A stretch of DNA of 64,000 nt from Indolivaga capnocytophagoides DSM 22835 (lineage in GTDB: Bacteria; Bacteroidota; Bacteroidia; Bacteroidales; Dysgonomonadaceae), in contig NZ_AUFL01000004.1 in NCBI RefSeq assembly GCF_000426485.1, positions 1 to 64,000 on the forward strand, read 5' to 3'. A model generated the notes under the pieces. That model ran no database searches and was not told where the DNA came from. It saw only the letters and a program-made list of their open reading frames with translations. The translations under genes and the position numbers were made by a program. Shown here in pieces: positions 31,459 through 43,335 of the stretch; position 1 is the first letter of the stretch, and the number at the start of each line of letters is the position of its first letter.

Positions 31459-32877
31459 ATGTTATTTAGTAGCATATTCTTTCTGGGTTTCTTTTTACCA
31501 ATATCGATACTCTCATATTTGTCAACTCCCCGGAAATACAGAAATATAACACTTCTTTTTCTGAGTTTGTTGTTTTACGCATGGGGAGAACCGAAAATGG
31601 TCTTTGTTATGCTCTTTGTAGTTATAACAAACTATTTTTCGGGTATACTTATAGCCAAAGATTATCGAAAGATTGGAATGTGTATATCGATACTAACGAG
31701 TATGGGTACTTTGGCTGTTTTTAAATATACAAATTTTGCTTATGATTCTTTTACAACTCTAATAACCGAGTTAGGCATAAGCTATAGTTGGATGTCTATT
31801 CCTCGAATAGCTTTACCGGTAGGGATCAGTTTCTATACATTCCAGACATTATCTTATAATATAGACATCTATCGGAATAATATTAAGCCATGTTATAATC
31901 TGATTGATTTTGCGACGTATGTCAGTTTCTTTCCTCAATTGGTTGCTGGACCCATTGTCCGATTTACAGATGTCAGGGAGCAGCTCGGTTCGAGAGGAAC
32001 TAATCTCGATAACTTCGCATCGGGTATAGAGCGGTTTATATTAGGGCTTGCCAAAAAGGTAATCATCGCCAATAACTGTGCTTATATAGCAGACCTTATA
32101 TTCGATTTACATCCTAAGTATGTGTCGGTAGGAAGTGCTTGGCTTGGGATAACTTTTTATACTTTACAGATATATTTCGACTTTTCGGGATATTCCGATA
32201 TGGCAATCGGGCTTGCTCGTATATTTGGTTTTCGTTTTCAGGAGAACTTTAATTATCCGTATATATCCAATTCGATAAAAGAGTTCTGGAGACGCTGGCA
32301 TATTTCATTGTCATCCTGGTTCAGAGATTATCTTTATATTTCGCTCGGAGGAAACCGAAAAGGTAAATATAGAACTTACATTAATCTTTCGATTGTTTTT
32401 ATCGTAACGGGCCTTTGGCATGGTGCCAGTTGGAATTTCATTATATGGGGTATTTGGCATGGGCTTTTTATTGTATTGGAGCGTATGGGGGGAGATAAGA
32501 TTTTGGAAAAGACTCCAAAACCGATACAGCATATTTATACATTGTTGGTAGTTATGATAGGGTGGGTGTTCTTCCGATCGGCTAATTTGGAAATGTCTCT
32601 CTTGTTCATTCAAAATCTTTTCGGAGGATTATCTACTGATCAAGTTGTGTTTCATATGGCAGATTATCTTACAGTTCACCATATTATAATTTTATCATTT
32701 GCTTTGTTGTTTTGCTCTCCGGTTTTTCCTGCTTTCAGAAATAGATTATCCGCATATATGGTGGAGCATACTTATATTGAATATATATATTATGTGTGTC
32801 TGCTGTTGTTATTGATTTTCCTCATAGCGGCTGAAACAATAACGACATTTACTCCATTTATTTATTTTAGATTCTAA
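31459..32877 (+). CDS. MBOAT family O-acyltransferase (AlgI-like)
   Basis: A 472-residue multi-pass membrane protein of the MBOAT family, group of alginate acetyltransferase AlgI and DltB. The catalytic histidine is in GLWHGASWNFIIWGIWHG (about residues 316-333). SFYTFQTLSYNIDIYRN and FPQLVAGPIVRF near the middle, and YFDFSGYSDMAIGLARIFGF, are conserved phrases. It passes an acyl group across the membrane to an SGNH partner that modifies an extracellular glycan or protein; the partner is encoded 4 bases downstream. The modified substrate is unknown, since no glycan genes are adjacent. Confidence 0.93.
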   Translation: MLFSSIFFLGFFLPISILSYLSTPRKYRNITLLFLSLLFYAWGEPKMVFVMLFVVITNYFSGILIAKDYRKIGMCISILTSMGTLAVFKYTNFAYDSFTTLITELGISYSWMSIPRIALPVGISFYTFQTLSYNIDIYRNNIKPCYNLIDFATYVSFFPQLVAGPIVRFTDVREQLGSRGTNLDNFASGIERFILGLAKKVIIANNCAYIADLIFDLHPKYVSVGSAWLGITFYTLQIYFDFSGYSDMAIGLARIFGFRFQENFNYPYISNSIKEFWRRWHISLSSWFRDYLYISLGGNRKGKYRTYINLSIVFIVTGLWHGASWNFIIWGIWHGLFIVLERMGGDKILEKTPKPIQHIYTLLVVMIGWVFFRSANLEMSLLFIQNLFGGLSTDQVVFHMADYLTVHHIIILSFALLFCSPVFPAFRNRLSAYMVEHTYIEYIYYVCLLLLLIFLIAAETITTFTPFIYFRF

Positions 32878-32881
32878 AATT

Positions 32882-33973
32882 ATGAAACCGAAATATCTGT
32901 TTGTCATATTATTTGTGATAATTATCTCAATACCGACATTATTCCTCCCATTTTATGAGTCTTCTACAGCCTCGGAAAATAGAGCGAAAGATAAATTTCC
33001 GGGGTGGTACACGCTGTATACATATCCGGTTTTGTTTATACGGAAAGTTGATGCTTTCTACAAATCTAACTTTGCATTGAGGAATCATTTGTATAACTTT
33101 TATAAATACCTTAAATGGGATATCTTAGGAGAGAACCCTTTTCCGAATGAGGTGGTTGTAGGTAAAGATGGCTGGTTGTTTCCCGGTAACAAGTCTTATC
33201 ATAATTATGACCAATCCTTGGGAGTCGTTTCCGATATAGAAGAACGTATGGATAGTACATGCAGCAAAATGCTGGCAATGAAAATTTTCTGTGATTCCCT
33301 TGGTATTGATTTTTATTTGGCTATAGGTCCGGATAAGGCGTCTGTGTATCCCGAGATGCTACCGATAAAGCCTCTAACGGTAGGGAAAACAAAAGATGTT
33401 GTCAAACGGAAACTGAAGGGATTTCATGTTAATGTCATAGATATGAGTGATTATATATTGGAACAGAAAGATGGACAGAAGCTTTATTTTTATAAAACCG
33501 ATACTCATTGGAATCATCTGGGAGCATATTTGGGTACTCAAAGGTTGTTAGATGAAATAAGGAAGAAATACGATGTGGGAGCTATTGACCTGAATGATTA
33601 TCAAGTAAAAGATACAGCCGTGTTTACTATGGACTTATCTCGCCAGATAGATGTTCTGATGAAAGAATCTTATTCCGTATTTAAGAAACAAAAGGATGAC
33701 TATACAAAAACGATAAGGTCTATGAACTACGATGGCTGGGATGTCCCCTTAGAGGAAACGATAAATGTAAAAAGAGAAAGTAAATGTGTGGTATTCAGGG
33801 ATTCCTACTTTCAAAATATGTATGATTATTTTTGCAATAATGTAGGTCATGCCGTTATCGGTGTTCAGCGGTTTGACAGGAATCTTATATTAAAAGTTCG
33901 TCCGGATTTTGTTGTATTCGAGTTAGTGGAGCGTCGTTTATTGGATTTTGATCCAAATGAATTTTATCTATAA
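32882..33973 (+). CDS. SGNH-like acetyltransferase, AlgJ/AlgX-related
   Basis: A 363-residue protein with one N-terminal membrane helix, the rest outside. It belongs to the AlgX/AlgJ-like SGNH group: VVGKDGWLFPGN near 98-109, FYLAIGPDKASVYPEMLP, the DTHWNHLGAYLGTQRL Asp-His motif (near 203-218) and the nucleophile serine in VVFRDSYFQNM (near 304). It takes the acyl group from the MBOAT partner and places it on the final acceptor. It starts 4 bases after the MBOAT stop, so the two are co-translated. A terminator follows at 33978. Confidence 0.88.
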   Translation: MKPKYLFVILFVIIISIPTLFLPFYESSTASENRAKDKFPGWYTLYTYPVLFIRKVDAFYKSNFALRNHLYNFYKYLKWDILGENPFPNEVVVGKDGWLFPGNKSYHNYDQSLGVVSDIEERMDSTCSKMLAMKIFCDSLGIDFYLAIGPDKASVYPEMLPIKPLTVGKTKDVVKRKLKGFHVNVIDMSDYILEQKDGQKLYFYKTDTHWNHLGAYLGTQRLLDEIRKKYDVGAIDLNDYQVKDTAVFTMDLSRQIDVLMKESYSVFKKQKDDYTKTIRSMNYDGWDVPLEETINVKRESKCVVFRDSYFQNMYDYFCNNVGHAVIGVQRFDRNLILKVRPDFVVFELVERRLLDFDPNEFYL

Positions 33974-38196: not shown

Positions 38197-38228
38197 AATA
38201 AGGTTATCCATTAATGGATAACCTTATT
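38197..38228. terminator. Bidirectional terminator after pheT
   Basis: AATAAGGTTATCCATT and AATGGATAACCTTATT form a perfect 32-base palindrome with an AT tip. It probably serves pheT and may also act on the convergent activase transcript. Confidence 0.75.
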
Positions 38229-38320: not shown

Positions 38321-41300
38321 TTACGATATCATAAAGTGCAGACGGTTTTGCAGATTTACTTCGGCGATGCCACCGTCTATATCTAGATAGAGGATATTCA
38401 TATCGGGGTACAACGTCTTCATTCGTTTTTCGACACCTTTCGCAACAATATGGTTGGCTATACATCCGAATGGTTGAATACATACAACTTTATTGACCCC
38501 CTTACGGGCATAGTGTGCAACTTCTCCGGCAATAAGCCAACCTTCGCCAAACTGATTTGACAGACTTAAAACCTCAGATGCAGCTTCGGCTTTCGCAAAG
38601 ATCGATTCAGATGGTTCGTAGAATCGGAAATTGCTCATGATCTTTTCATATTTCTTGATTTTCATATTGATAAGCTGCCAGATCACAGGTTTCAATGCTT
38701 TTTCGAAGATTGTTTCTTCTTTCAAACCGTTCTTTACGTCTTCCTTGCTATTCACAAAGAATTGTAGCAGGAAGTCTAGTAAGGGTGGGCATGAAACCTC
38801 GACTTCTTTCGACCTCAGCCATTCTGTAATATTGGCTTGAGCATAATTATTGTATTTGAGGAATATCTCACCTATTAAACCTACTTTAGTATATTGTTTA
38901 TCGTGTATCAATACATTATTGAAATCGGCGACAGCTTCTTTCAAGAGTCGGCGTAAAGTTTTAGGTGAATTCGCTCGTACGGCATCTATACCTCTTTCTA
39001 TATAGAAATCGAAGACCGATTGTGAATCTCCTTTTTTCTTTTCTCTTACGGATATAGCACTATGCATCTGTTGCAAAGCATCCGAATAGAGAACCGTATC
39101 AACGGCTATCTTAGCCAACTTCTTCCAATCAATATTAAATTGGCTTTCTTCGTTCTGATATGAATCGCCAGATGATAGAGCTATTACAGGAATGTCTCGA
39201 AAGCCGGCATTGATAAGTCCGCTCTTTATCTGAGCCAAATAATTAGTCGCACGGCATTGTCCTCCCGTTTGAGTTATAGCCAATACAATATCTTGTACAT
39301 CATATGCGCCCGATTGCAGAGTATTTATGATGTCGCCAAGTATAAGAGTCGAGGGATAACAAACTTCATTGTTCCCATACATCAACCCCAGATCGGCAGA
39401 CATTTTATTTGATTTTGGGAGATTCTCTATTTTATAACCAACTAATTCGCCCAAAGCCGGTGCGAACGGTGATAAGAAATCAGTAAACCAAGGTATCAGT
39501 ATTGTCTTTTTACGATCGTTAGCCGTATAAGGTATGCGATATCCTTTGTAATCTTCGGTGTGGGTCTTTCTTTCTTTTGTATTGATGGTTTTGAGTGATT
39601 CGACCAATGAACGTAATCTCAGCCTGATAGATCCGGGACTGGCTATTTCGTCAATACGGAGTATTGTGAGATTTTTACCTGCCTGTTTCAATATATCCTG
39701 TACCTCGTCCATAAGAAATGAATCGGGACCACAACCAAATGAGTTTAGCTGTATCAATTGAATATTGTGGGGAAGCTTAGCGACTTCCATTGCTGCTTGT
39801 ACTACACGATTTGGAAATGCCCATTGAGAAACGATATTTAATTTACCGAATCCATGACTTTCTTCTTTGCGAAACACATCGTCAGTAAAAACAAGAGCTC
39901 CCAGATCGGATAATATTTGTCCTACTTTCTGGTGGATCAAAGGATCCGCATGGTACGGACGCCCCGCAACAACGAAGGCGGTGAGATTATTATCTATTGC
40001 ATCTTGAAGTAACGCTTTTTGCTGTTCCCTCAATTGTATTTTTGTATCTGTTTTTACCTGCATAGCTTTCGCAAAGGCATGTTCGAATGTGCTTTTGCTT
40101 ATACCCAGCAAAGTTAGGTATTCGTAGCAGCCTTTTTTCAAAGCATTGTCATTGCTAAAAGTGATAACAGGCTTATCGAATGGTATTCCGTATTTTTCTT
40201 CGGGTTCAACCGAACTTCTTATTACTTCCGGATAACCGCTCACTACCGGACAATTAAATGAATTGGACGAACTACCAAATTCTTTTTCTTCCTTTGGTAT
40301 GATAGGATAAAATATACGATCCACTTTCTGTTCTATCAAAGACAGTATATGTCCGTGTACCAGTTTTGCCGGGAAACAGATGTTATCGGACATAACACCT
40401 CCTACACCTTTTTGGTATAACGGGAATGTAGACTCGGGAGAAAGTCTCACATTAAAACCCGATTCGGATAATAGAGTATGCCAGAAAGGATAATTGTCGA
40501 ACATATTCAATACACGGGGAATACCTATCGTTTTTCCCTGACGTATATTATCGGGATTTACCTTTTGATCGAAAAGTGTATCATTTTTGATATCAAATCC
40601 GTTAAATCCTCCTTTTTGAGCTGTATTTTTATTATAGAATATCTTTTCGCATTTATTTCCGGCATAACATATATTGCCGTTTTCGAATTTGAATCTCAAT
40701 ACCGAGCAGTTGTTTGTACATCCTTTACACTGTAATTCCTTACTATTGATCAAGTCCGGATTCGGTAATAACGAAAGATTATTGAAATAGGTCTTGCTTT
40801 GTTCTTTTTTCCATAAACTTTGAGCATACAAAGCTGCACCTAAAGCACCCATTAGTTCAGGATGATCTGTAGAACCGACCGATTTGCCTGATAGTAATTC
40901 CAATGCACGGTATACTGCATCGTTGCGGAATGTACCTCCCTGAACAACAATGTGGTTACCGAGTTGTTTCAGGTTTGAAATCTTCAAAACTTTATACAAA
41001 CAGTTTTTCACAACAGAATATGCCAGACCGGCAGCAATATCATCCATTCCTGCATTTTCACGCAAAGACTGTTTTACTTTCGAATTCATGAATACTGTGC
41101 ATCGCGATCCTAAGTCGGATGGATACTGAGCAATACATGCCGATTCGGAAAACTCTGTCAAAGACATATTCATTGTAGATGCGAAATTCTGTAAAAATGA
41201 ACCGCATCCAGCAGAACAAGCCTCATTCAATTCGATATTTGATATGACACCGTTTTCTGTAAATATCGATTTGATATCCTGTCCACCAATATCGAGGATA

Positions 41301-42562
41301 AAAGACACTTGCGGATCGACATATTGTGCGCCAGACAGGTGAGCCATTGTTTCCACTATGCCATAATCAAGCCCTAAAGCCGATTTGATAAGGTCTTCGC
41401 CGTAACCGGTTGCTGCAGAAGAAATAAATCGGTACGTGATGTTATTATCCTCTGCTTGTTTTCTGAATTTAGCTAGTCCCTCTACAACTTTCTTCAAAGG
41501 ATTACCTTCATTACCTCCATAGAAAGTATATAATATATTGGCTTCGGCATCCATTATTACAATCTTTGTAGTTGTAGATCCCGAATCTATACCAAGAAAA
41601 CATTCGATCTTGTCATTATTCTTGAGTTTTCTGAATTTCAGAGGTTTTATTTTTCTGTTCAGCTTCCATGTCCGATACTCGTTTTCATCTTTAAACAGAG
41701 CAGGTAAGGAATCTTTTTGTGTACTTATATTGTTCTCTGATTTAGCCAGAAGAGTATTTAAGTCGTGATATATAGTTTGCTTGCTCTCGAAGAGGGCTGC
41801 ACCCCATGCAGGAAAGTATTCCCCATTTTCGGGAACAGTGAGATCTTCTTCCGAGATTTTCAATACCGAACGAAAAGCATTTCTAAGGGCTGGAAGAAAC
41901 GTTAGAGGCCCTCCGATACACAGTATCTTAGGTGTAATGTCGCAGCCTCTGGCCAAAGTGGTTACACTTTGCAATGCTACAGCATGAAGTATTGAACCGG
42001 ATATATCGGAAACAGGAATATTTCGACTTATCAGATTTTGTACATCTGTTTTTGCAAATACTCCGCAACGTGAAGCGATAGGGTAGGTCTTTTCACAAAG
42101 AAGAGCCTTTTTTCCTAATTCTTCGGTCGAAATATTCATCAGATTTGCCATTTGGTCTATAAATGCGCCTGTACCGCCTGCACAACTCCCATTCATCCGG
42201 ATGTCAGGATGCTTGCCCTGTTTGAAAAATACCATTTTAGCATCTTCTCCTCCTAAGTCTATAAGCGTATGTGTTTCCGGATACACTTTATTTACTACTT
42301 CAACTGCGGCAACTACTTCCTGAACAAATTCGATTCCTATACGTTCGCCGATACCCATTCCTGCCGAACCTGTAATGTTTATACAGAATTCCGTTTCAGG
42401 ATAGAGAGACACAACCTTCAGAAGTTCTTCTTCGAAAGATTGCTGTATATTAGCCTGATGTCTTCTGTAAGCTTTATAAATAATCTGAAACAGAGAGTCT
42501 ATAATGACTATCTTGATAGTGGTTGATCCTACGTCAACACCCATTTTATATTGATGTTTCAT
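38321..42562 (-). CDS. Giant acyl-CoA dehydratase activase-related protein (two ASKHA ATPase domains plus dehydratase/DCCP-like region)
   Basis: A 1413-residue cytoplasmic iron-sulfur protein related to the HgdC/BadF-G activators of 2-hydroxyacyl-CoA dehydratases and to double-cubane cluster proteins. ASKHA ATPase domain 1 (1-265) has GVDVGSTTIKIVI, GSCAGGTGAF (Cys127) and SRCGVFAKTD (Cys166); domain 2 (320-585) has GIDSGSTTTKIVI, EACSAGCGSF and SRCTVF. A cysteine knot follows (Cys612, 615, 619, 632, 638). The rest holds the DUF2229 region (VMSDNICFPAKLVHGH) and dehydratase-like phrases (NSFGCGPDSFLMDEV, QTGGQCRATNY, QPFGCIANHI). It should use ATP to push electrons to low potential. The substrate is unknown. 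A TetR gene precedes it by 12 bases. Confidence 0.87.
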   Translation of the reverse strand: MKHQYKMGVDVGSTTIKIVIIDSLFQIIYKAYRRHQANIQQSFEEELLKVVSLYPETEFCINITGSAGMGIGERIGIEFVQEVVAAVEVVNKVYPETHTLIDLGGEDAKMVFFKQGKHPDIRMNGSCAGGTGAFIDQMANLMNISTEELGKKALLCEKTYPIASRCGVFAKTDVQNLISRNIPVSDISGSILHAVALQSVTTLARGCDITPKILCIGGPLTFLPALRNAFRSVLKISEEDLTVPENGEYFPAWGAALFESKQTIYHDLNTLLAKSENNISTQKDSLPALFKDENEYRTWKLNRKIKPLKFRKLKNNDKIECFLGIDSGSTTTKIVIMDAEANILYTFYGGNEGNPLKKVVEGLAKFRKQAEDNNITYRFISSAATGYGEDLIKSALGLDYGIVETMAHLSGAQYVDPQVSFILDIGGQDIKSIFTENGVISNIELNEACSAGCGSFLQNFASTMNMSLTEFSESACIAQYPSDLGSRCTVFMNSKVKQSLRENAGMDDIAAGLAYSVVKNCLYKVLKISNLKQLGNHIVVQGGTFRNDAVYRALELLSGKSVGSTDHPELMGALGAALYAQSLWKKEQSKTYFNNLSLLPNPDLINSKELQCKGCTNNCSVLRFKFENGNICYAGNKCEKIFYNKNTAQKGGFNGFDIKNDTLFDQKVNPDNIRQGKTIGIPRVLNMFDNYPFWHTLLSESGFNVRLSPESTFPLYQKGVGGVMSDNICFPAKLVHGHILSLIEQKVDRIFYPIIPKEEKEFGSSSNSFNCPVVSGYPEVIRSSVEPEEKYGIPFDKPVITFSNDNALKKGCYEYLTLLGISKSTFEHAFAKAMQVKTDTKIQLREQQKALLQDAIDNNLTAFVVAGRPYHADPLIHQKVGQILSDLGALVFTDDVFRKEESHGFGKLNIVSQWAFPNRVVQAAMEVAKLPHNIQLIQLNSFGCGPDSFLMDEVQDILKQAGKNLTILRIDEIASPGSIRLRLRSLVESLKTINTKERKTHTEDYKGYRIPYTANDRKKTILIPWFTDFLSPFAPALGELVGYKIENLPKSNKMSADLGLMYGNNEVCYPSTLILGDIINTLQSGAYDVQDIVLAITQTGGQCRATNYLAQIKSGLINAGFRDIPVIALSSGDSYQNEESQFNIDWKKLAKIAVDTVLYSDALQQMHSAISVREKKKGDSQSVFDFYIERGIDAVRANSPKTLRRLLKEAVADFNNVLIHDKQYTKVGLIGEIFLKYNNYAQANITEWLRSKEVEVSCPPLLDFLLQFFVNSKEDVKNGLKEETIFEKALKPVIWQLINMKIKKYEKIMSNFRFYEPSESIFAKAEAASEVLSLSNQFGEGWLIAGEVAHYARKGVNKVVCIQPFGCIANHIVAKGVEKRMKTLYPDMNILYLDIDGGIAEVNLQNRLHFMIS

Positions 42563-42574
42563 AATTCTTAAGGA

Positions 42575-43219
42575 TTAGAAAGTGTTGTCAGCATTGCTTG
42601 AATTGGGTCTCAGAGAATTAATCACGAATTCGATAACATATTTTTCGTGATTTTCAATGAGATTGTCATACATATTCCGAGGTATCTCAAGTAGAGTTGT
42701 AGCCATGTTCCCAAATATAAAAGGGAACATACATAACGACAGTATATTCAATAGAAAGTCGGCAGCAGGAGTTTCCCTGATTGTTCCTTTTCTGACTTCT
42801 TCCTGTATTCGTCCTTCTATTTTACTGAATGAACTGTAGGGATTCTTGTTTTTTATCCGTTGGGTCAGCCCTTCGGGGTTAAGGCTGACTTCATTCAGAA
42901 TGAAAGCTGCTATCTGAGGGTATTCGAATAACAATTCGTAGTAGGTGTGTATCCATGTTTCGATAAGTTCGAAAAAAGGCATATCCGAATGGATGGTGTC
43001 GAATATTCGTTTTGCAAGAATATCCAGAGCATCTTCAAAAATAATCTCGAAAAGATTATACTTCGATTGGAAGTAATAGTTTACCATAGCGACATTAGTC
43101 TCCGAAGCTTTTGCTATATCTCTGACACTCGTGCCTTTATAGCCATTTTTTATAAATAAATACTGAGCTTCCCTGAGTATTCGTTTCTTAACGATGTGTG
43201 AATCTTCTGTGTTAAACAT
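42575..43219 (-). CDS. TetR family transcriptional regulator
   Basis: A 214-residue regulator (if started at ATG 43219, MFNTEDSHIVKKRIL). The helix-turn-helix lies at about 15-60: ILREAQYLFIKNGYKGTSVR, then AKASETNVAMVNYYFQSKYN with the usual Y-Y-F-x-S-K ending. The C-terminal part is the variable ligand domain. Upstream in-frame starts exist at 43249 and 43273 (TTG), but they would place the coding region across inverted repeats that look like an operator. The activase gene follows 12 bases after its stop, so the two form one unit and this protein probably represses it. Confidence 0.87.
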   Translation of the reverse strand: MFNTEDSHIVKKRILREAQYLFIKNGYKGTSVRDIAKASETNVAMVNYYFQSKYNLFEIIFEDALDILAKRIFDTIHSDMPFFELIETWIHTYYELLFEYPQIAAFILNEVSLNPEGLTQRIKNKNPYSSFSKIEGRIQEEVRKGTIRETPAADFLLNILSLCMFPFIFGNMATTLLEIPRNMYDNLIENHEKYVIEFVINSLRPNSSNADNTF

Positions 43220-43281
43220 TTGTTCTAAACGGTTGTTTAACGCAAACATAGTCAAGAAAAATGAATTAAACAAGTGTTTAA
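43212..43281. promoter_or_regulatory. Repeated TTAAACA/TGTTTAA half-sites at the TetR start
   Basis: TTAAACA-AG-TGTTTAA (43266-43281) is a perfect 7-2-7 inverted repeat; a second pair of the same half-sites lies at 43212-43218 and 43234-43240. Paired half-sites at a TetR gene start usually mark autoregulation. Confidence 0.55.
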
Positions 43282-43295
43282 TGTCATAAAAAAAG

Positions 43296-43335
43296 AAAAA
43301 CGCAGTGTGATTAATTGATTATCATGCTGCGTTTT
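43296..43335 (-). terminator. Terminator after kdsB
   Basis: AAAACGCAG pairs with CTGCGTTTT with an inner TGAT/ATCA pairing; on the minus strand the stem is followed by TTTTTCTTTTTTT. It separates kdsB from the TetR gene. Confidence 0.8.

Follow-up and report, generated by a model that had tools for sequence, protein, structure and literature searches.

A single-chain reductase gene of the PlsA/Ger family and its adjoining tetR gene in Indolivaga capnocytophagoides DSM 22835

Known ester-to-ether reductases and the plsA-type gene

The founding paper on the plasmalogen synthase PlsA is reportedly Jackson 2021, and that on the glycerol ester reductase Ger is said to be Sahonero-Canavesi 2022. 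The substrate of PlsA/Ger family members is the sn-1 ester of glycerophospholipids, from which they form either a vinyl or an alkyl ether by reduction (PMC9702350, PMC12838417, PMC11150832). Here we characterize a plsA-type gene and the tetR gene next to it in a 64,000-nucleotide stretch of Indolivaga capnocytophagoides DSM 22835 (contig NZ_AUFL01000004.1, positions 1 to 64,000; "the window"). A sequence-only reading had described the plsA product as a 1413-residue protein of "unknown substrate". Placement in the PlsA/Ger family supplies the substrate class (the glycerophospholipid sn-1 ester, converted to a vinyl or alkyl ether) and turns this description into that of a specific lipid enzyme. 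We estimate the probability that the protein reduces a glycerophospholipid ester to an ether at roughly 0.86. The observations presented are of its architecture, conserved residues, model fold, homology to a plasmalogen producer's protein and operators. While the enzyme family is already known and is found here in a new genome, the regulatory unit is better defined than we found it to be in print.

The role of PlsA is the rebuilding of membrane lipids into plasmalogens without oxygen. According to Goldfine, plsA and plsR encode reductases that convert the sn-1 acyl ester to an alk-1'-enyl ether; pls orthologues occur in Listeria and Enterococcus faecalis, and plasmalogens have been reported in both L. 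monocytogenes and E. faecalis (PMC9702350). Plasmalogens form in E. coli that carries recombinant PlsA from E. faecalis, L. cremoris, C. perfringens or Bifidobacterium, and the same source calls single-chain PlsA the common form in facultative anaerobes and describes Act1, Act2, Red1 and Red2 in PlsA in the legend of its Fig. 8 (PMC12838417). The chemistry proposed for PlsA consists of two sequential electron reductions, protonation and dehydration (PMC8788747). PlsA/PlsR homologues are reported for approximately 15% of sequenced Bacteroidota (PMC10191378), and phosphatidylethanolamine (PE) plasmalogens are reported as present in B. thetaiotaomicron and absent in three other species (PMC10056535). 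B. thetaiotaomicron makes plasmalogens; the word plsA is absent from the main text of PMC10056535, so the gene of this species looks unassigned in that paper.

The window protein is like the PlsA/PlsR system of Clostridium perfringens (fused in Enterococcus, Lactococcus and Listeria) in its Act1-Act2-Red1-Red2 order, its full-length homology to the Listeria protein, its conserved cysteines and the adjoining TetR gene that some species have. It is unlike this system in being one chain, whereas published accounts give two genes for C. perfringens, in its approximately 38% identity to Bacillota proteins, and in an operator motif found in a subset of Bacteroidota. With Ger of Thermotoga maritima and Desulfatibacillum alkenivorans, as described in the literature, it shares the family, two activation domains and the substrate class; the published Ger product differs in being a saturated alkyl ether.

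Domains, conserved cysteines and model fold

The gene and its domains are as follows.

38321..42562, minus strand: plsA-type gene with ATG start, predicted single-chain ester-to-ether reductase (plasmalogen synthase family), 1413 amino acids
41753..42562, minus strand: Act1, first activase (ASKHA) domain, approximately residues 1-270, cluster cysteines C127 and C166 (PF01869, motifs, model fold)
40823..41596, minus strand: Act2, second activase domain, residues 323-580, C449 and C488, with an extra C453 in the cluster loop (PF01869; PDB 1hux and 4eht by sequence and fold)
40649..40729, minus strand: Cys4 linker, C612, C615, C619 and C638 (conserved in 92/92 rows)
39581..40582, minus strand: Red1, first dehydratase/reductase domain, approximately residues 661-994, DUF2229 at 678-896, C729, C771 and C944 (PF09989; fold match)
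38324..39550, minus strand: Red2, second reductase domain, approximately residues 1005-1413, C1068, C1103 and C1367 (hhalign to Red1 and to a separate Fusobacterium gene)

The 1413-residue open reading frame (ORF) described from sequence alone is present at 38321-42562 on the minus strand and begins with an ATG. Its product is ordered as activase, activase, Cys4 linker, reductase 1 (DUF2229) and reductase 2. The two activator-type ATPases with cluster cysteines that the sequence-only reading had recognized correspond to two BcrAD_BadFG ATPase stretches in Pfam (PF01869; 227.9 bits in total) in which C127/C166 and C449/C488 are kept, and NCBIfam labels both domains as acyl-CoA dehydratase activase. 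The two activase domains are themselves homologous (hhalign, 4.1e-37), and Act2 matches solved activators by sequence (HgdC, 1hux, E-value: 1.1e-30; 4eht was also matched). The DUF2229 match scores 243 bits. What had been called a dehydratase/double-cubane-like region resolves into two tandem domains, Red1 and Red2, that are mutually homologous (hhalign, P 7.8e-7), with C729 opposite C1068 and C771 near C1103. The hhalign alignment ends before C944 and C1367; from the like motifs SFGCGPD and QPFGCIANH, we read these two residues as a probable third pair.

Conservation of these residues was assessed in an alignment of 92 rows (91 distinct, as the window is included twice) built from ORFs longer than 3.9 kb at loci up to L102; L012, L016 and L091 were left out, as were L018, L039, L061 and L096, where the gene is split. 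Fourteen of the 15 cysteine positions, among them all four cluster cysteines of Act1 and Act2, are Cys in every row, while C1367 is Cys in 91 rows with one gap. The earlier "cysteine knot" is the Cys4 linker, whose spacing (C612-x2-C615-x3-C619 ... C638) is kept in 92/92 rows. In the aligned rows, the phosphate and adenosine motifs of Act1 and Act2 are invariant or nearly so; the ATPase residues, whose loss had been named as a refutation, are all kept in both domains.

The cluster loop of Act2 reads NEACSxGCGSF and has an extra cysteine, C453 (codon at approximately 41206), in 92/92 PlsA-type rows. The same position is Thr in 9/9 distant rows and in the solved activators shown. C453 is possibly a marker of the PlsA type and a sign of changed cluster ligation.

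Structure predictions used 54-row alignments, each made up of the window and 53 of the 76 complete copies. The AlphaFold model of the activase half (predicted local distance difference test [pLDDT] 90.3, predicted template modelling score [pTM] 0.85) matches 4eht, 1hux and MbdQ in fold comparison. For the reductase half (pLDDT 88.2, pTM 0.85), the ten best fold rows, at Z 10.4-14.8, are all chains of dehydratases, the double-cubane cluster protein (DCCP) or benzoyl-CoA reductases, and the next, unrelated rows score at most 7.9. These include the 2-hydroxyisocaproyl-CoA dehydratase 3o3n_B (Z 14.8), DCCP (6eno, Z 14.0-14.2), BzdNO (Z 13.8) and MbdON (Z 12.4). This comparison covers Red1 and hardly Red2, the assignment of which rests on hhalign. 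Searching PDB sequences with a profile of the reductase half returned chance rows only.

The 2-hydroxyisocaproyl-CoA and 2-hydroxyglutaryl-CoA dehydratases with their activators, HadI/HadBC and HgdC/HgdAB, resemble the window protein in activase homology (1.1e-30 to 1hux) and in Red1 fold (Z 14.8); they consist of separate subunits without fusion and act on CoA thioesters. The DCCP:DCCP-R system is similar in Red1 fold (Z approximately 14) and in having an activase partner. It differs in being made of separate proteins, and the reductase half of the window protein gave no sequence match to it in the PDB search. DCCP holds a double cubane, with six cysteines around one [Fe8S9] cluster; each Red domain has three invariant cysteines, and the fold of Red1 is similar to that of DCCP.

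By analogy with the family, a picture may be drawn of the chemistry at the clusters, the route of the electrons, the phospholipid as substrate, the vinyl ether as product and the direction of regulation. PlsA would correspond to an activase and a 2-hydroxyacyl-CoA dehydratase/benzoyl-CoA reductase combined in one chain. Act1 and Act2 would form an internal pseudo-dimer that receives electrons from a low-potential donor, and ATP hydrolysis would drive these electrons singly into iron-sulfur clusters of Red1 and Red2. At these clusters, the carbonyl of the sn-1 ester in a completed diacyl glycerophospholipid would be reduced (probably in PE, the synthesis of which is available in the host genome through Psd), and protonation with loss of water would give the 1-alk-1'-enyl (vinyl) ether, that is, a plasmalogen. 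The earlier idea that one self-contained chain uses ATP to drive low-potential electron transfer holds up in this family setting.

Relatives, distribution and the likely product

The plsA gene is found in 14 of the 31 genomes of the relatives search, host genome included, and in 5/5 further genomes of the same genus (81-88% identity; the copy of G003 is split over contigs). The best named relative is that of Dysgonomonas sp. ZJ279 (75-76% identity), which places the host in or near the genus Dysgonomonas. The L. monocytogenes homologue aligns over residues 8-1413 at 38% identity, and full-length alignments were also obtained with proteins of Acetoanaerobium, Fusobacterium, Subdoligranulum, Collinsella and Haliovirga; coverage is 98-100% and identity 34-39% for L. 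monocytogenes, Fusobacterium, Collinsella and other homologues. Pfam architecture is identical in Listeria, Enterococcus raffinosus, Collinsella and Bacteroides oleiciplenus. Fusobacterium has two genes for the protein (975 and 404 amino acids), the second of which encodes a Red2 domain (2.6e-93 to Red2 of the window), in keeping with the two-gene plsA-plsR layout. The notion that PlsR is a regulator was rejected, as Fusobacterium has a separate Red2 reductase gene where plsR would stand.

A tree of 42 rows places the window protein, together with Listeria and Enterococcus, in a group of 33 rows (Shimodaira-Hasegawa approximate likelihood ratio test support of 100, with a long-branch warning), from which nine distant rows (21-27% identity) are set apart. 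Within a sample of Desulfobacterales, 145/146 genomes have some match: the PlsA type is found in 12 (11 at 41-50% identity and one at 37%), and most of the other listed matches are of the distant class, mostly at 24-30% identity. Proteins of the distant class are approximately 1350-1500 amino acids in length (G504, G515, G597 and others; L127, L128, L134-L137 and L139).

If glycerophospholipids are reduced from ester to ether, the product is probably a vinyl ether. Several points weigh against a plasmalogen synthase. The window protein is somewhat closer to Desulfobacterota homologues (44-47% identity) than to those of Bacillota (37-39%), and its link to plasmalogen producers runs through the Listeria homologue, not through C. 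perfringens or E. faecalis sequences. A search of the open-licence literature found no report of Dysgonomonas plasmalogens. Closest relatives outside the Bacteroidota include the Desulfobacterota, a group with a proven Ger that makes saturated alkyl ethers (PMC11150832), and PlsA and Ger are described as not separable by sequence (PMC13274423, PMC11868695). In some species, two activation domains, as present in the window protein, have been tied to alkyl ethers (PMC13274423). The Desulfobacterota relatives, the two activation domains and the lack of separation by sequence would fit a Ger, with the same machine and substrate and a saturated alkyl ether as the final product. We consider this unlikely. 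Two activation domains are also present in the Listeria, Enterococcus, Collinsella and Fusobacterium homologues and were rejected as proof of Ger; the window type is rare in Desulfobacterales, where the distant class, which may include Ger, makes up most listed matches; and the lipids reported from Bacteroidota are plasmalogens, as far as the published accounts go.

An alternative would be a related one-chain reductase with a different ester as its substrate, for example the O-acyl ester of Bacteroidota glycine lipids, or with a small molecule that TetR also senses. The window protein belongs to a distinct Bacteroidota clade (five rows, support 100 in the 42-row tree), and unusual ester lipids are described from this phylum (PMC10191378), but every sequence feature examined, including the domains and the 15 cysteines, is common to the Listeria protein; this alternative is improbable. 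Least probable of all is a stand-alone activator or stress reductase serving a separate dehydratase, or a double-cubane-type reductase of small molecules, which would suit the DCCP-like fold but is at odds with both reductase halves lying within the chain, with strongest sequence relatives of the PlsA type and with a genome that has neither a PF06050 partner nor a further strong activase.

That genome (4.38 Mb, 98.65% complete) encodes only one DUF2229 protein, has only a weak third activase-like match and gave no match to HGD-D (PF06050). In the plsA product itself, PF06050 gave no row at E-values up to 1; the Collinsella homologue alone gives a weak match (17.4 bits). As the sequence-only reading had stated, neither a dehydratase nor a CoA-transferase gene adjoins plsA, judging from the neighbouring ORFs.

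In a Bacteroides-centred sample, 40/149 genomes have a match. One genome retains only a 61-residue remnant containing a stop, and the gene of another is broken into three pieces (G479:C88 and G335:C74), a picture of patchy loss. An unfused relative is found in Monoglobus (L022, 3995-7212), where three genes encode an activase-related protein (Red1-like, 3.9e-35), a 2-hydroxyacyl-CoA dehydratase (Red2-like, 8.5e-20) and an activase. YjiM of Klebsiella, used as a single sequence, did not align to Red1 or Red2.

The tetR-plsA unit and its predicted operators

The features upstream of plsA are as follows.

42575..43219, minus strand: tetR, candidate local repressor, 214 amino acids (PF00440, 42.6 bits; translation from ATG 43219)
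43226..43239, no strand assigned: predicted operator copy 2, TAAACAACCGTTTA, between the promoter box and the tetR start (pattern match and conservation)
43243..43250, minus strand: TATGTTTG, -7-like box (sequence; aligned relatives)
43267..43280, no strand assigned: predicted operator copy 1, TAAACACTTGTTTA, upstream of the -7-like box (pattern match and conservation)
43297..43335, minus strand: terminator-like hairpin and T run in the kdsB/tetR gap (fold -12.6 kcal/mol, z -5.0 against 200 shuffles)

The TetR gene (PF00440) lies where it had been described, 12 bases upstream of plsA: its stop ends at 42575 and plsA starts at 42562. Its start is likely ATG 43219, because the listed TTG start at 43273 is upstream of the promoter-like box. 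When the regions upstream of tetR were aligned for seven loci (window included), two palindromes were seen around a TAnnTTTG-like box; TATGTTTG resembles what we take to be the -7 consensus of Bacteroidota, TAnnTTTG. The flanking genes, from their sequences, are presumably kdsB and pheT. Because the kdsB/tetR hairpin lies on one side and the convergent pheT downstream, tetR-plsA stands as a unit.

The pattern TAAACRNNYGTTTA occurs twice in the window, at 43226 and 43267, and both copies flank the tetR promoter (shuffle mean of 0.04; 0/100 shuffles reach two). Genome-wide, there are three sites (the extra one on contig C5) compared with five for a reversed control pattern, so single sites are at chance level and no wider regulon is claimed. 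What carries the operator case is that two sites are paired at a single promoter and that they are conserved. Linkage was counted in 95 loci including the window (L004) and leaving out L001, L002, L003, L012, L016, L022 and L091; the operator count also left out loci after L102. Using a TetR profile built from linked TetR proteins, a TetR gene was found to adjoin pls in 30/95 loci (22 upstream on the same strand, five downstream and three divergent), with one more locus having it elsewhere in the flank. TAAACRNNYGTTTA is present at 15/30 loci with a linked TetR and 0/65 without (Fisher p 1.4e-9, relatedness ignored), although some of the counted loci had served to define the pattern and are not independent, and at L090, one of the 15, it lies inside the TetR gene, probably by chance. 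With the twin operators and these locus counts, TetR control of plsA has moved from a guess to a well supported prediction. We found no report of this operator in the open-licence literature.

Two close relatives (L009 and L023, 75-76% identity) have neither the TetR gene nor the operator, as if both had been lost together. At L025 (904), L027 (3932) and L041 (3979), a second operator copy stands directly before plsA in addition to the tetR-side copy.

The tetR-plsA pair would be a bicistronic, self-regulated unit: in the absence of a signal, TetR bound to the two palindromes flanking the promoter would repress both tetR and plsA. A catabolic operon with a small inducer was considered and rejected, since the neighbours are not catabolic and kdsB and pheT flank the unit. 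Tentatively, Bacteroidota plasmalogen synthesis may be an inducible one-gene switch, in which a twin-operator TetR governs only itself and plsA and is released by a fall in oxygen or by a membrane-lipid signal, in strict and facultative anaerobes. The host has cytochrome bd, which fits exposure to oxygen and is no proof of oxygen sensing. If such a switch exists, the chemistry of the membrane would be altered as the cell requires. The defined operator and regulator offer a handle on the signal controlling Bacteroidota plasmalogens.

A TetR/AcrR gene, EF1326, is reported directly upstream of the E. faecalis pls gene (PMC9702350), and the adjoining TetR gene of the window resembles it in this respect. 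It has been remarked in print that the TetR regulator of pls is absent from strict anaerobes. This does not hold generally, because TetR is linked to pls in Bacteroides, Parabacteroides, Petrimonas and Collinsella loci. These lineages are usually called strict anaerobes.

Hits of a sigma-70 promoter scan were about as many as chance would give (18 compared with 17.0 expected), which is no surprise in a phylum with another promoter type. The terminator scan did not list the kdsB/tetR hairpin, the loop of which is too long for the scan rule; it was found by direct folding. Between the convergent pheT and plsA, there is a perfect 14-pair inverted repeat with a terminator-like appearance (38197-38228). 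Elsewhere in the window, at 31459-33973, lies a gene pair that we take to resemble a membrane-bound O-acyltransferase and an AlgX-like partner.

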